From: Deltaproteobacteria bacterium
Lineage (GTDB): Bacteria; Myxococcota_A; UBA9042; DTJE01
Assembly: GCA_029555025.1 (NCBI GenBank)
Contig: JAKPTZ010000082.1
Location: forward strand, 1 to 59,285
Reading direction: 5' to 3'
Length of the DNA stretch: 59,285 nt
Made by a program: the position numbers and the translations under genes. This document shows, in pieces, positions 1-6,074 of this stretch. The notes under the pieces are model-generated. The model did no database searches, was not told where the DNA came from, and worked only from the letters and a program-made list of their open reading frames with translations. Positions within the stretch are counted from its first letter, which is position 1. Each line of letters begins with the position of its first letter.

Positions 1-237
1 CATGGTCTTGCCCAGTCCCTGCGTGCCCAAGACGACTATGTTCTTGACCTCGCGCAGGAAAGACAGGTCAAAGATGCTTTCGACCAGGGGCCGGTCGATT
101 GACTTGGGCCATTCCCAGTCAAAATCCGCCATCTGTTTGAAACGTCCGAGTTGGGCACGCGCCACCCGGCTGTCCATGCTTCGGGACGACAGTTCCATGG
201 CTTCCAGGCGGACCAGTTCCTGGCCAAGCTTTGCGGA
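1..237 (-). pseudogene. istB: IS21-type IstB helper ATPase remnant (partial)
   Basis: The minus-strand frame from 237 down to the window edge reads as the part of an IstB/DnaC-like ATPase leading into its Walker A loop (VLGTQGLGKT, at about 1-33). Just before it is the RPLVES segment that in IstB proteins sits about 25 residues ahead of the P-loop. IstB is the ATPase that delivers target DNA to the IS21 transposase IstA. A TAG at 238-240 closes the frame upstream, and the sequence beyond it does not resemble the missing ~35-40 N-terminal residues. No istA is found where it should lie, at higher coordinates on this strand. The element is therefore most likely truncated here, although the window edge hides the rest. 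Translation could still start at an internal ATG. The IstB-type assignment is firm; its status as a remnant is inferred. Confidence 0.7.
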
Positions 238-476: not shown

Positions 477-1880
477 ATGCTCAAGCAATTACGAATACAG
501 AACTTCAAGGGATGGAAGGATACCGGCGCCATTCGCATGGCCCCCATCTCGCTGTTCTTTGGTGCCAATAGTTCGGGGAAGTCCAGCATCGGTCAGTTTT
601 TAATGATGCTGAAGCAAACCGTTGAGTCGCCGGACAGAAAGGCCGTGTTCTACCCGGGCGGCAAGAACTCGGCGGTTCAACTTGGCTCTTATCAGGAGAT
701 GGTTTTTCACCGCGATCCTGAAAACAAGATCACCTTTGACTACCGATGGTCGTTATCGGAAGTGCTCAAGTTCAAAGACCCGGTAACCGAGCAGCCCTAT
801 TCCGGCGACAACCTCTGTTTTCACGCCGAAGCCGGCGTAGATGATAAGAACCAGCGCACCATGGTGCTTGACCAGCTGAAATATGAGTTGTTTAGGGAAG
901 ATGCGTTCCAGTTGTCCATTGGCATGGAGCGAAAATCGGACGCCAAATCCGAGTACAAAGTCGATGCCACCAATTACACGCTTAAGCGCAAGCCCGGGCG
1001 GGTCTGGTATCCCGGCGCCCCGGTTCGGTTTTATGGTTTCCCTGATGAGGTGGTCGCCTATCATCAGAACGCAGATTTCGTTCAGGCGTTAAACCTGCGC
1101 CATGAAAAGCTGTACCGTTCTCTCTGTTATCTTGGCCCTCTGCGCACCAAGGCAGAACGACTTTATTCATGGACCGGCATGGAGCCAGAGAGTGTCGGCT
1201 ACGCTGGAGAAACCACGGTCGCGGCGATTCTGGCCGCCCGAAACCGAAGAATCAGTCTGGGTTGCAAACGGCCGGGAAAACCTTTCGAGGAGATCATTGC
1301 GCTCAAGCTCAAGCAAATGGGACTCATCGAGGAGTTCAAGGTCAACCCGATATCGGAGCAACGGCAGGAATACGAGGTCAAGGTTCGCACCAGGGGATCA
1401 CAAGACTGGGTCGATCTTCCGGACGTAGGTTTTGGCATTTCGCAGGTGCTTCCGGTTCTGGTGCAATGCTTTTATGCTCCGACCGGGTCGATTATCCTTA
1501 TGGAACAGCCGGAGATTCACCTGCATCCGAATGCGCAATCGGCGCTGGCCGATGTGATGATCGATGTCATCAACTCGAGGGAAGAAGGGGCAGCCAGGGA
1601 TATTCAACTAATAATCGAGACCCACTCGGAGCATTTCCTGCGACGTCTGCAGCGCCGTATTGCAGAAGACAAAATACCGCAGGAAAAAGTATCGGCATAT
1701 TTCGCCAATATCACTAATACGCCTGCGACACTGGATCCGTTGCAAATCGATATCTTAGGCAACATTAAAAATTGGCCAGAGAACTTCTTCGGCGATGAAA
1801 TGGGTGACATTACCGAGCAGGCCAAGGCCGCAATGAAAAAGCGGATGAAGAACCGTGATAGGCCGGAGGTCTCCGTATGA
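477..1880 (+). CDS. DUF3696 ABC/OLD-type AAA ATPase
   Basis: This 467-aa protein is an SMC/ABC-type ATPase of the AAA_15/AAA_21-DUF3696 kind. Walker A is GANSSGKSS at residues 29-37, the signature-like segment is FGISQVLP near residue 320, and Walker B with the switch is LMEQPEIHLHP near 340-350. A THSEH histidine switch follows, then a C-terminal DUF3696 region (about 405-455). Relatives such as AriA of PARIS and OLD ATPases act as sensors that unleash a partner nuclease. No Toprim or other nuclease domain is fused here. The start has a good AGGAGAAAGGA Shine-Dalgarno. The next gene overlaps by 4 bases (ATGA), which indicates translational coupling. The family call is firm; a sensing role in defence or RNA stress is inferred from the neighbours. 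Confidence 0.9.
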   Translation: MLKQLRIQNFKGWKDTGAIRMAPISLFFGANSSGKSSIGQFLMMLKQTVESPDRKAVFYPGGKNSAVQLGSYQEMVFHRDPENKITFDYRWSLSEVLKFKDPVTEQPYSGDNLCFHAEAGVDDKNQRTMVLDQLKYELFREDAFQLSIGMERKSDAKSEYKVDATNYTLKRKPGRVWYPGAPVRFYGFPDEVVAYHQNADFVQALNLRHEKLYRSLCYLGPLRTKAERLYSWTGMEPESVGYAGETTVAAILAARNRRISLGCKRPGKPFEEIIALKLKQMGLIEEFKVNPISEQRQEYEVKVRTRGSQDWVDLPDVGFGISQVLPVLVQCFYAPTGSIILMEQPEIHLHPNAQSALADVMIDVINSREEGAARDIQLIIETHSEHFLRRLQRRIAEDKIPQEKVSAYFANITNTPATLDPLQIDILGNIKNWPENFFGDEMGDITEQAKAAMKKRMKNRDRPEVSV

Positions 1881-2407
1881 GCCTGCCGAGGAAATGCGTG
1901 GTGGATACCAATGTGCCGAAGACGGCTAACCTCGCCACTCAGCCGAATCCAAGATCTGACGTATCCGATGCCTGTGTGCTGGCCTGCGTCGAGGCGGTCG
2001 AGCATGTGATCAGAAGCCGAGGCCTGATCATCGACGCCGGAGACGAAATTTTCGATGAATACCGGCGGCAGCTCTCCATGAAGGGACAACCCGGCGTTGG
2101 TGACCGTTTTATGAAATGGGTTCACGATAATCGCTGGGGCCTGCCGGACAGCCACCGAGTGGCCATCACAGAAAATGGCAACTCATACGAAGAATTCCCC
2201 ACACATGGCGGGCTGAATAATTTCGACAAATCGGATCGCAAGTTTGTTGCCGTAGCCAACGCCCACGTGGACAAGCCTCCGATATTGCAGGCCACCGATA
2301 GCAAATGGTGGGGATGGAAGACTGCCCTGGCTGAGGTTGGGGTAAACGTTCGGTTTCTTTGCCCGAAGTATGTCGAAACAAAATATGCCGAGAAGATGAG
2401 GCCGTGA
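1877..2407 (+). CDS. PIN-domain ribonuclease-like protein
   Basis: This 176-aa protein has the acidic pattern of a PIN-fold nuclease. There is an N-terminal strand ending in VVDTN (Asp10), acidic residues in DAGDEIFDEY (Glu57/Glu61), FDKSDRKFVA (Asp117/Asp120), and a strand leading to ATDSKWW (Asp141). PIN domains use such clusters to bind Mg2+ or Mn2+ and cut single-stranded RNA, usually leaving 3'-OH and 5'-phosphate ends. No antitoxin of the VapB type precedes it. It is instead coupled through ATGA to the DUF3696 ATPase upstream and through GTGA to an RNA ligase downstream. This suggests that the ATPase controls it, or that it works together with the ligase. The fold is inferred from motifs only, because overall similarity to classic VapC is low. 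Confidence 0.7.
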   Translation: MSLPRKCVVDTNVPKTANLATQPNPRSDVSDACVLACVEAVEHVIRSRGLIIDAGDEIFDEYRRQLSMKGQPGVGDRFMKWVHDNRWGLPDSHRVAITENGNSYEEFPTHGGLNNFDKSDRKFVAVANAHVDKPPILQATDSKWWGWKTALAEVGVNVRFLCPKYVETKYAEKMRP

Positions 2408-3102
2408 AAGAAGACTTTTTCAAATTTCCTTCAACCCCTCATCTGATGACCATGCCCGGAGTGGACATCAGGGGCGATAAGGTTCTGACAGAATCGGAAC
2501 GTGATGAATTCCTGACACATGAGATGACTCTAGAAGAAAAAGTGGACGGGGCGAACCTGGGATTCTCGTTTGATGCCGACGCGAATATCCGTGCCCAGAA
2601 CCGTGGCGCTTATTTGCATCTGCCCGCCTCGGGACAGTGGAAAGGACTTGGTGAATGGTTGGCGATCCACACCGATACGCTTTTTGAGCATCTTACTGAC
2701 CGGTACATCCTCTTTGGTGAGTGGTGTTACGCCCGGCACACAATTTATTACGGACGGCTGCCCGACTGGTTTCTTGGCTTTGATATTTATGACCGGAAGG
2801 CAGGTCGCTTTCTGGCTACCGCGCGCCGGGATCGAATGATTGCACAGATGAATATATCGAAGGTGCCTGCCATTGCAACCGGGCGCTTTACCTATCCCGA
2901 AATTATCGAGTTCTTATCGCAATCAGCACTTACCGATCAGCCTGCTGAGGGGATCTACCTGCGAATTGATCTCGGTGACTGGCTTGAACAACGAGCTAAA
3001 CTTGTTCGCCCCACATTTATCCAGGCGGTAGAACAGCACTGGTCGCGTTCCGCAATCGTGCCAAACCGACTGGTTACCAGGCATGAGGACGAAGGAAGGT
3101 AA
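2404..3102 (+). CDS. ATP-dependent RNA ligase family protein
   Basis: The protein of about 232 aa carries all hallmarks of the RNA_ligase nucleotidyltransferase domain. Motif I is EEKVDGAN with the AMP-accepting Lys46, motif Ia lies around AQNRGAY (64-70), motif III is LFGEWCYA (103-110) followed by FDIYD, motif IV is EGIYLRI (182-188), and motif V is AKLVRP (198-203). Such enzymes seal 3'-OH/5'-phosphate RNA ends through ligase-AMP and RNA-AMP intermediates. There is almost nothing beyond motif V, so it is a minimal ligase without the C-terminal domain of Rnl2 or DraRnl. The GTG at 2404 is preferred over the upstream ATG at 2359 because it overlaps the PIN stop as GTGA and gives the compact domain. 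No polynucleotide kinase or phosphatase gene is adjacent. Confidence 0.87.
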   Translation: MKEDFFKFPSTPHLMTMPGVDIRGDKVLTESERDEFLTHEMTLEEKVDGANLGFSFDADANIRAQNRGAYLHLPASGQWKGLGEWLAIHTDTLFEHLTDRYILFGEWCYARHTIYYGRLPDWFLGFDIYDRKAGRFLATARRDRMIAQMNISKVPAIATGRFTYPEIIEFLSQSALTDQPAEGIYLRIDLGDWLEQRAKLVRPTFIQAVEQHWSRSAIVPNRLVTRHEDEGR

Positions 3103-3226: not shown

Positions 3227-5542
3227 CTACTTGCACGGAAGATCCCAACAACTCTTGCCGTCGTGCCATGAGCCTGAACCGTTCTTGCAGACATCCTCGG
3301 TCTTGGAGTCGTCGCACGTGCTACCCTTGCAGCAGGCCCCCTGGCACGGGCTGTTGTCGCATACCTGACCATTGTGCCAGATGCCGCCGCCCGCCGAACA
3401 CGTGGACTCAGACACGTTGTCTGAACACTCGTTATCCTTGCAGCATGCCCATAAATGACAAGGATTATGTGTGCAGTACAAGCCCTCGCGCCAGACGGCT
3501 GGGCCGTTTGCACACCCAACAGACCCCGAGTGGCTGCAATCATCGTCGCAACAGGCCCACAAAGGGTCTGGATCCATCTTGAAGCAATCGACCCGGCGAA
3601 GCCAGGTGCCATTATCCTTGTTGCATTGCGCCTCGGTGGATGTCTTGCAACTTGAATCAGGCAGGATACAAGCGCCTGTTTCCTTGAAGGTCACCTCGTC
3701 ACAAGTCTTGCCTTTTTCCCATGTTAATGAGCTGTAGCAGCTCGACTCAACGTAGTCGTCATAACAGTTGCCCGTTACTTCGTTATAGCAGGCGCCAAGA
3801 CCGCAGGGATTGTCGTTACATTCGGCATCCTCAAAGAATTCTTCATAGTTACCGTCGCAGTCCGTGGCAAAGACACCATCGCTGCACTGGCCCACGCTGT
3901 CGCGGTTGTTGCAGCAGGCTCCGGTCTTGAATCCGCAGGGTTGGGAAGAGCATTTCACGTTGGCGTAGAAGTCGGGTTCCTGGGCGTCACCGTTGCAGTC
4001 CGGGGCCAGAACATCATCGCGACAAGTCGAATCATTGGGATAGCAACAGGCGCCGGTCTCATAGATATCTTCCCAATGACACGGATTATCCTTGCATTTT
4101 GCGTCCTTGTGAAACGTGACTCCTGTTCCGACGCAATTTTTCTCTTTGTAGTCATCCGAACATCGGGGAAACGAGAATGATGTATAGCAGCACGCCCCAT
4201 AATTGATGCCGCATGGGTTGTCATCGCATTCCGCCCCCTTGTGCCAGACCATTCCATCATCTTCGCATTGGCTGGCCGTTTGGTAATCGATACAGGTCAT
4301 ATCGGTCGTATTGCAGCATGCTCCGTACTCAAATCCGCACGGATTGGTGCTGCACGACGTGCTTTTGATATACGTGCCTTTTTTCAAGTTGACACACGAA
4401 TGCTCGCTGTAGTCCGAAAAGCATCCAACATCCCACTGGTTGTTTATGCAGCAAGCGTTTTCCGTTTCGGGCGGACTGCAAAGCGAACTTGTACATGTCT
4501 TCTGGTAACGCCAGGTGGATACGCCGTCGCTTTCACAGCGCTCTTCTGACCAGAAGTCTCTGCAACCTATCTGGGTACAACACGCCCACATCTGTCGCGG
4601 ACATGGCTGGTCGGAACAGGATTTGCCAAGCGAGAAGGTACCGGTTCCCTTACATTTATCGGCGGTCTCCCCGTCCTGGCAGTAACCACCATGTTGATCG
4701 TCCACGCAGCAAGCCCCGGCGCAGACATCGACATCGTCGATCTCGTCCCAACAGCGATAGCCCCCCTTCCAGACACCACCGAAGTTGCTGCATTGGCGGC
4801 TTGTGATCATATCAACACAGCCCTTGACGATCCCGTTTACGGTTGGTCCGCAACATGAGCCAAAAGCGCATGGATTCTGATCACATGTCTTGTTGTCGTG
4901 CCACACGCCGGCATCACCTTCACACGTCTCCTGGGAGAGATCATCGATACACCTGCCATGGGCGCAGCATGCCGAAGTCTTCAACAGTCCGTCTGAACAC
5001 TTTTTGCCCTCACGCCATGTCCCGACCAGCACCTTCTCGCAGTTGTCTTTGGATACCCGGTCGTGGCAGAGCCCGTTGGACAGGCACGCAAAGAGACCGC
5101 AGGGATTGTCTGAACAGGTCTTGCCTTTGTATTTGGTTCCGCCTTTTTCGGTACATTGATCCCCTGTCCAGTCGTAACAAGCCCCGTTTGAACAGCAAGC
5201 CTGGATCATCGGGTCTGGCGGGACATCTTTTGAAACCGCGGTGTCTTTCGGCTGATCGCCGTCGCTTTGTTGATTGAAATCCGTATGAACTGACGTATCC
5301 GTGGCTGTGCCGTTGTTGTCCCTGGGTGTGTTGGAATCGCTTACGACACTGGAATCGTTGTGCCAGCCATCTTCATAATTGACTGCGTCGCCGTCAACCG
5401 TGTCGTGCGGAACCGTATTCTTGCTTGCACACGAAAGGAAAGTTGACATCCCCAGAACGATCACGAAAAGGGTCAGGAAAGGTGGCTTTTTGTGTCTGAA
5501 ATTATGGGCAACTTCACCAAAAGACTGACCATTACAGGACAT
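3227..5542 (-). CDS. cysteine-rich repeat lipoprotein (ACC-type repeats)
   Basis: This is a secreted lipoprotein of about 771 aa. After a basic N-terminus and a hydrophobic stretch, the lipobox ends at STFLSC, followed by an Asp/Ser/Thr-rich linker of about 100 residues. The rest is 16 consecutive units of 35-50 residues with the pattern G-A-C-C-x(4-10)-C-x-D-x(5-8)-C-x(4-6)-G-x-W-x(2)-G-x(2)-C-x(3)-P-C. Each unit probably folds around internal disulfides. Similar repeats occur in uncharacterised surface proteins of planctomycetes and deltaproteobacteria; no enzymatic function is known. I chose the ATG at 5542 because an AGGGGG lies just upstream. ATG 5557 and a longer form to 5701 are also open. 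Base composition is more AT-rich than in most of the window, like the adjacent cassette. Its role in surface structure or adhesion is a guess. Confidence 0.8.
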   Translation of the reverse strand: MSCNGQSFGEVAHNFRHKKPPFLTLFVIVLGMSTFLSCASKNTVPHDTVDGDAVNYEDGWHNDSSVVSDSNTPRDNNGTATDTSVHTDFNQQSDGDQPKDTAVSKDVPPDPMIQACCSNGACYDWTGDQCTEKGGTKYKGKTCSDNPCGLFACLSNGLCHDRVSKDNCEKVLVGTWREGKKCSDGLLKTSACCAHGRCIDDLSQETCEGDAGVWHDNKTCDQNPCAFGSCCGPTVNGIVKGCVDMITSRQCSNFGGVWKGGYRCWDEIDDVDVCAGACCVDDQHGGYCQDGETADKCKGTGTFSLGKSCSDQPCPRQMWACCTQIGCRDFWSEERCESDGVSTWRYQKTCTSSLCSPPETENACCINNQWDVGCFSDYSEHSCVNLKKGTYIKSTSCSTNPCGFEYGACCNTTDMTCIDYQTASQCEDDGMVWHKGAECDDNPCGINYGACCYTSFSFPRCSDDYKEKNCVGTGVTFHKDAKCKDNPCHWEDIYETGACCYPNDSTCRDDVLAPDCNGDAQEPDFYANVKCSSQPCGFKTGACCNNRDSVGQCSDGVFATDCDGNYEEFFEDAECNDNPCGLGACYNEVTGNCYDDYVESSCYSSLTWEKGKTCDEVTFKETGACILPDSSCKTSTEAQCNKDNGTWLRRVDCFKMDPDPLWACCDDDCSHSGSVGCANGPAVWREGLYCTHNPCHLWACCKDNECSDNVSESTCSAGGGIWHNGQVCDNSPCQGACCKGSTCDDSKTEDVCKNGSGSWHDGKSCWDLPCK

Positions 5543-6074
5543 GTGGCCCCCTGTCATGAGTTTTCTTGAGGCTGGAATTAGACCACGTGGGGCCACGTCC
5601 GTCAAGGTGGTGTACGACTGAGCCATCCCCTCATAGGAAAGGGAGTACGCCCGTTGATGGTTGGCGGTCGGCGGTAAACCCTTCCGCGGCTCCCCCTTCA
5701 CCCCTTCCCGTGCGAGTGCGGGGCGTTCACGTCGTTCGTTCGGGCGTCGGCTCGGTCGGCTGATGCACGATGTCGCTTGTTTTTGGATTGTACCGCGCCG
5801 ATTCGCCGGCCGCTGTCATTAATCCGGAATTCTGTTCACGCCCTCGCATCGCATCGGGTGGGGTATGCCGCTCCGGGCTTCCCCGCCGCCTGCCACGGCC
5901 ATCGGCGTACGCCCGGCGATTATCGGTGTGCGACTTCATTTTCAAACTCGAAGGCCGGACATGCATGCTGACCTCTACACAGTCCATTGTGTCAATCCTG
6001 ATTTACTCCAGTGCTGGCGCGGGCGCCAAAATCCCTCGTCTCTCTATCAGGGGATCGCTCAGCCCCCTTCCCTC
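5543..6074. other. ~530 bp without a supportable gene
   Basis: Between the cysteine-rich lipoprotein and the tRNA promoter I see only short overlapping reading frames with no recognisable motifs, signal peptides or Shine-Dalgarno support. It contains the upstream region of the divergently oriented lipoprotein gene. No repeat or terminator stands out. Confidence 0.5.

Follow-up and report, generated by a model that had tools for sequence, protein, structure and literature searches.

A compact RNA ligase accompanies the ATPase-PIN pair of the candidate antiviral system HEC-03 in a conserved three-gene cassette

The window analysed here is a stretch of 59,285 nucleotides at the start of contig C32 (JAKPTZ010000082.1) of a Deltaproteobacteria bacterium genome (GCA_029555025.1; 3.49 Mb, 97.6% complete). 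Near its left end lie three genes on the same strand, encoding an ABC-type ATPase, a divergent PIN-domain protein and a compact RNA ligase. The features of this region are:

1..237, minus strand: fragment of an IS21-type IstB gene at the contig edge (PF01695, E=2.4e-10), a mobile-element border outside the cassette
477..1880, plus strand: gene for a DUF3696 ABC/OLD-type ATPase, HEC-03B (Pfam and PADLOC HEC-03B)
561..587, plus strand: Walker A motif GANSSGKSS, ATPase residues 29-37
1497..1529, plus strand: Walker B region LMEQPEIHLHP of the ATPase, with Gln at the catalytic Glu position (EQPE)
1877..1880, plus strand: ATGA stop/start overlap from the ATPase gene to the PIN gene (read from the sequence)
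1877..2407, plus strand: gene for a divergent PIN-domain protein of 176 aa, HEC-03A (HEC-03A match, AlphaFold, hhalign, conservation)
2404..2407, plus strand: GTGA stop/start overlap from the PIN gene to the ligase gene (read from the sequence)
2404..3102, plus strand: gene for a compact Rnl2-type RNA ligase of 232 aa with a GTG start (PF09414, motifs, model)
2539..2541, plus strand: ligase motif I lysine K46, predicted to be adenylated (invariant in 64/64)

A preliminary description of this DNA had reported the three reading frames with their two overlaps and a mobile-element remnant at the border, and all of these are present, the cassette starting about 240 bases past the IstB fragment. The same description called the segment AT-rich, which overstates the case: its GC content of 52.7% is lower than the 60.4% of positions 6001-59285, but the segment is not AT-rich in absolute terms. 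No defence gene adjoins the trio in the window. Just downstream, positions 3227-5701 of the minus strand encode an 824-aa protein with many Cys-rich repeats (GACC...C.....G.W..G..C...PC) and no Pfam match.

The first gene, directly upstream of the PIN gene, encodes a 467-aa protein that resembles RecF, Rad50 and OLD proteins and is matched in Pfam by AAA_15 (4e-26), AAA_21 (6e-20) and, at its C-terminus, DUF3696 (4e-8). It had been described as an OLD/AriA-like DUF3696 ATPase; the ABC ATPase with DUF3696 stands, but among PADLOC models HEC-03B (E=1e-129) is far nearer than AriA of PARIS (E=6e-28). HEC-03, Hma-embedded candidate 03, is a two-gene candidate attributed to Payne et al. (bioRxiv 2024.01.29.577857, as cited in PMC12988326). 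The Walker A, signature and H-loop motifs are conserved across 84 relatives of the ATPase. In 82 of the 84 HEC-03B relatives, Gln (EQPE) stands where ABC ATPases usually have their catalytic Glu behind Walker B (DEPE), a substitution with which ATP hydrolysis may be slow.

The small second protein is HEC-03A by PADLOC (E=2e-32), a model that also matches 75/75 of its relatives. A Pfam search with the window's own 176-aa protein gave no match; among the relatives the commonest Pfam match is PIN_3, which is weak and found in 24 of 75. Profile-profile comparison (hhalign) of the PIN alignment with PIN_3 gave a probability of 81% (E=1.2e-5), whereas two unrelated controls reached 0.1-0.5%, and none of 87 PIN sequences departs from D10, E61, D117, D120 or D141. 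Both results agree with the original assignment of a PIN fold with a conserved Asp set. Structure prediction had been proposed earlier as a check that might show a non-PIN protein; plasmid copies were left out of the folding inputs. The AlphaFold model is confident (pLDDT 96), but Foldseek returned no significant match in the PDB, the best hits, to VapC and PH0500, having TM-scores of about 0.43-0.55 at E>0.7. Foldseek against viral models also gave no significant match, and a PIN profile sequence search of the PDB returned chance matches only (a designed TIM barrel and a uricase); none of this points to a fold other than PIN. Because a confident model goes together with such weak similarity to VapC and PH0500, the protein is classified as a divergent PIN. 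As RNases of the VapC/FEN type, PIN nucleases depend on metal, and their active site is related to that of flap endonucleases (PMC5408214).

The third protein matches RNA_ligase PF09414 (E=4e-30). Motifs I, III, IIIa, IV and V and the nucleotidyltransferase fold are all present; the motif sequences are KVDGAN, NRG, FGEW, EGIYLR and RAKLVR, and the motif residues are invariant in 64 relatives, in agreement with the minimal RNA ligase with motifs I-V first proposed for this gene. The structural model is nearest to NgrRnl, REL1 and T4 Rnl2 (E about 1e-7), RNA ligases ranking ahead of DNA ligases, and the 232 residues leave no space for an OB domain past motif V. By its closest matches, the protein is predicted to be a nick-sealing Rnl2-type RNA ligase. 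None of 56 ligases was matched by a PADLOC model.

To survey recurrence, GTDB genomes were scanned with the PIN alignment, which gave 192 relatives, and the best 80 were kept as genome loci. Among these best 80 of 192, the order ATPase-PIN-ligase was found in 52, the ATPase-PIN pair only in 24 and the PIN-ligase pair only in 4; the resulting share of 70% with a ligase is biased toward the window's clade, since these are the top matches to a PIN query. The ligase is present in most of the window's closest relatives. The possibility raised at the outset, that the ATPase and PIN genes would rarely occur with the ligase elsewhere, is therefore contradicted by a gene order conserved across genomes. 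Full cassettes occur in at least six phyla (Myxococcota, Planctomycetota, Pseudomonadota, Verrucomicrobiota, Acidobacteriota and, on a plasmid, Actinomycetota), and the trio is also found on plasmids and viral contigs. HEC-03A was found in none of the sequenced phages searched.

The three genes are tightly packed and diverge together. Median gaps are -4 bp from the ATPase stop to the PIN domain and -1 bp from the PIN stop to the ligase domain, and protein distances co-vary for all pairs (Mantel r 0.81 for PIN-ligase, 0.77 for PIN-ATPase and 0.74 for the third pair; 0/1000 permutations as high). Samples drawn with the ligase first, and so free of the PIN anchor, agree with the PIN-anchored counts. 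On plasmids, HEC-03A adjoins 9/9 ligases of at least 38% identity and 0/18 below; across 284 Myxococcota genomes, 6 of the 7 ligase places scoring at least 257 bits lie in a trio, whereas 0 of the 23 lower-scoring loci fetched do. ATPase, PIN and ligase thus form a conserved unit, with the active sites of nuclease and ligase intact, which passes from genome to genome as one block.

Within this unit the ligase is an accessory of the ATPase-PIN core. On an Aeromonas plasmid (L015) an IS element splits the ligase gene and leaves the ATPase and PIN genes intact; together with the 24 of 80 loci that have no ligase, this argues that the ligase is no obligatory antitoxin. An apparent PIN-ligase fusion in L009 was rejected as a frameshifted PIN gene reading into the ligase frame.

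Genomic neighbourhood analysis placed several relatives in defence operons, here given as raw locus counts. In three loci (L045, L059, L062) the trio lies inside a type I restriction operon, in the arrangement HsdM...trio...HsdR, and in a fourth (L097) HsdM adjoins the cassette. Five others (L031, L036, L038, L057, L087) have the trio between an HmaB-like methylase and a PLD-helicase, some of them also carrying a GmrSD gene, and a DrmMI or type IIG-like methylase lies nearby in seven (L027, L046, L066, L070, L077, L084, L088). An Aeromonas plasmid copy is preceded by AbiEii and Hok genes and followed by a GASH system, a viral copy from IMG/VR (L099) stands directly after a tyrosine integrase, and an Acinetobacter soli PIN copy lacking the ligase has helicase, methylase and HNH genes as neighbours. 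Defence-operon contexts, anticipated in the preliminary description, are therefore real among relatives in type I restriction and Hma-like operons, but the window's copy is not embedded in one. ATPase-PIN pairs of Poribacteria occupy a conserved chromosomal setting with no evident defence island.

Other settings were also encountered. In L026, L040 and L054 a gene for RlaP (PF10127, an RNA repair nucleotidyltransferase) lies convergently just downstream of the ligase, on the opposite strand. In Azotobacter beijerinckii (L073, 5015-12897) the trio is flanked on one side by a gene of the NifH family and on the other by two genes for nitrogenase component 1, in what looks like an alternative nitrogenase cluster.

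The PIN tree bears on the order of assembly. Deep branches (Pseudanabaena, Poribacteria, Chloroflexota) lack the ligase, whereas one large group has it apart from scattered losses, with seven changes in total. From this distribution, the ligase was probably added later to an ATPase-PIN core. The ligases of the trio form a single clade of 71 (SH-aLRT 88), of which 68 stand beside a PIN gene; the exceptions are L100, whose contig is cut just upstream, L101, on a phage contig, and L109/L135, before a large DEAD helicase. The trio-type ligase of L135 (G026:C56), which has neither PIN nor ATPase, directly precedes a 1981-aa DEAD helicase, and the same type of helicase follows the ATPase-PIN pair in L008. 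In L006, a distant ATPase-PIN lineage carries a ligase nested within the trio ligase clade, and this placement suggests a second, separate pairing of ligase with ATPase-PIN.

Ligases outside the clade have a different partner: a protein of the HD-AAA_33 type adjoins at least 18 of 28 of them, and 0 of the 71 trio loci. We take the HD-AAA_33 proteins to be HD-Pnk-type enzymes that heal RNA ends as 5'-kinase and 3'-phosphatase. What marks the trio ligases is thus their partner, a nuclease in the place where related ligases have an end-healing-type enzyme. A PF09414 ligase with an HD-AAA_33 protein is also a common separate pair on plasmids and in Myxococcota (L016-L018, L111-L132).

Two-gene forms occur as well. 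PIN-ligase pairs in Aquabacterium and Burkholderiales (L086, L095, L096, L098) largely share one chromosomal setting, and a search of these four loci for an ATPase remnant found none; they are possibly a simpler two-gene unit. Of the ligase-less ATPase-PIN pairs of Poribacteria (L033-L056, L078, L080), several share a setting in which a mutS-like gene follows downstream, which suggests vertical inheritance.

For the substrate, gating and antiviral activity of this cassette we infer the following course of events. The ABC ATPase would serve as infection sensor and as gate for the PIN protein, the trigger possibly being a phage that disables a neighbouring restriction-type system. Once triggered, it would allow the PIN protein to cleave RNA of the host, perhaps tRNA, and translation would stop. 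Metal-dependent nucleases of the PIN kind leave a 5'-phosphate and a 3'-hydroxyl, and ATP-dependent RNA ligases join such ends. Since a metal-dependent PIN should produce these ends, which would be direct substrates for an Rnl2-type ligase, the cassette's ligase could reseal PIN-made breaks without end-healing enzymes. Leaky or aborted activation would then be reversed, with growth stopping only under strong, sustained activation. The IS-split ligase of L015 and the 24 ligase-less loci point to a ligase that would tune or reverse the nuclease rather than neutralise it.

Taken as a whole, the reading of an ATPase-gated RNase in a HEC-03 variant, whose 5'-phosphate/3'-hydroxyl breaks are resealed by the cassette's own ligase, has in our judgement an even chance of being right. 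We hold more tentatively, as a conjecture on the lesser side of even, that this is an immune system with built-in reversibility, in which a gated RNase and a dedicated RNA ligase share one operon and the balance of cutting and sealing sets recovery against abortive infection. In the RNA-cutting immune systems known so far, either inhibition holds the nuclease back or the phage repairs the damage; a cut-and-mend cassette would, if true, follow a different logic and would explain how cells could survive accidental activation.

An RNA-repair cassette is an unlikely alternative. Here tRNA or rRNA would be cut by nucleases of phage, toxin or other origin, the ATPase would sense the damage, and the ligase would mend it, with the PIN protein trimming frayed ends. 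Such a role would suit the pairing of related ligases with end-healing-type enzymes, the convergent RlaP neighbour in 3 loci and the persistence of PIN-ligase pairs without ATPase in 4. In the window's genome RtcB was not found, which also favours repair, and HD-AAA_33 was not matched in a search run without a positive control. The 24 of 80 loci with ATPase-PIN and no ligase, however, indicate that the nuclease is the core, and no healing enzyme stands beside any of the 71 trio loci, although damage of the PrrC type needs healing before sealing (PMC2610378).

It is improbable that the PIN protein and ligase jointly process specific host RNAs, by trimming and by circularisation or splicing, under a regulatory ATPase. 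A comparable role has been proposed for HARP-Rnl3, whose linkage in extremophiles (PMC12153264) makes PIN-ligase processing conceivable, and the PIN-ligase pairs of Aquabacterium and Burkholderiales look vertically inherited. The patchy, mobile spread of the trio (plasmids, viral contigs, a position after an integrase) and its embedding in restriction operons are nevertheless unlike housekeeping, and a search for tRNA or Rfam RNA near the trio loci as candidate substrate gave nothing consistent.

Even more doubtful is a DNA restriction or repair system in which the ATPase would be RecF/Rad50-like, the PIN protein a flap-type nuclease and the ligase a sealer of nicks. The similarity of the ATPase to RecF, Rad50 and OLD proteins, the kinship of the PIN active site with flap endonucleases (PMC5408214) and the copies within restriction-modification operons would fit, but the ligase speaks for RNA through its Pfam family, the ranking of its structural matches and the missing room for an OB domain. 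A passenger role for the ligase, as a mobile repair gene beside ATPase-PIN with no functional link, is least probable of all: its absence from 24 of 80 loci and its solitary occurrence in L101, a phage contig, and ahead of a helicase in L109 are outweighed by the 68 of 71 clade ligases that adjoin PIN, overlapping or nearly so, by PIN-ligase distances that co-vary as tightly as PIN-ATPase distances (0.81 vs 0.77) and by the pairing of PIN and ligase where the ATPase is absent.

Comparison with known systems sets the gated, resealable RNase reading in context. A VapBC module was rejected, as the upstream gene encodes a 467-aa ATPase rather than a small DNA-binding antitoxin, PF01850 gave no match and hhalign to PF01850 relatives reached 3%. 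PARIS likewise places an ABC ATPase of related type beside a metal-dependent RNase and, to our knowledge, has no ligase. Its effector AriB is a Toprim protein, whereas the effector here is PIN-like with no Toprim match, and the ATPase is far nearer HEC-03B. AriB leaves a 3'-hydroxyl on cut tRNA (PMC12409363).

PrrC is an RNase that carries ABC ATPase motifs. The type I restriction enzyme to which it is linked keeps it silent, and phages counter it with enzymes of tRNA repair (PMC2610378). The trio resembles PrrC/RloC in combining ABC ATPase motifs with an RNase, in its type I restriction linkage (L045, L059, L062) and in that sealing repair is part of PrrC biology. PrrC/RloC is, however, one polypeptide, whereas ATPase and PIN-like nuclease are separate proteins here, and the healing and ligase enzymes that act on PrrC damage are those of phage T4, whereas the cassette here is bacterial, carries the ligase itself and has no enzyme for healing.

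HARP, a PIN-type RNase P, is linked to the RNA ligase Rnl3 in extremophiles (PMC12153264) and shares with the trio the genomic linkage of a PIN nuclease to an ATP-dependent RNA ligase. The trio ligase belongs to another family (13.9 bits against TIGR01209, cut-off 136.9), the HARP family matches 0/75 of the PIN proteins, and the trio is a co-linear operon with an ATPase, spread across mesophiles. Healing-and-sealing RNA repair of the HD-Pnk/Pnkp type was rejected, the kinase/phosphatase partner being present in 0/71 trio loci. The HD-AAA_33-paired ligases are sister ligases of the same PF09414 family, with a partner of phosphatase-kinase type in place of the trio's nuclease.

HEC-03 itself is the closest system: HEC-03A and HEC-03B are adjacent in the window, their order is conserved and related loci lie beside Hma-like genes. 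The difference is the ligase, which is in no PADLOC model. In a literature search that covered sources other than bioRxiv and subscription papers, HEC-03 appeared in prevalence mentions, with no paper found on its function or on a ligase, and none joining DUF3696, PIN and RNA ligase. The statement in the preliminary description that no described system has this trio therefore needs dividing: the ATPase-PIN pair was already catalogued as HEC-03, and the ligase association is new. The trio is thus a ligase-bearing variant of this candidate antiviral system, new only in that association. It supplies a third component for the uncharacterised HEC-03 and a reason to expect that this system produces RNA breaks with 5'-phosphate/3'-hydroxyl ends. 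It also brings to light a family of compact RNA ligases whose defining trait is the change of partner from end-healing enzyme to nuclease.
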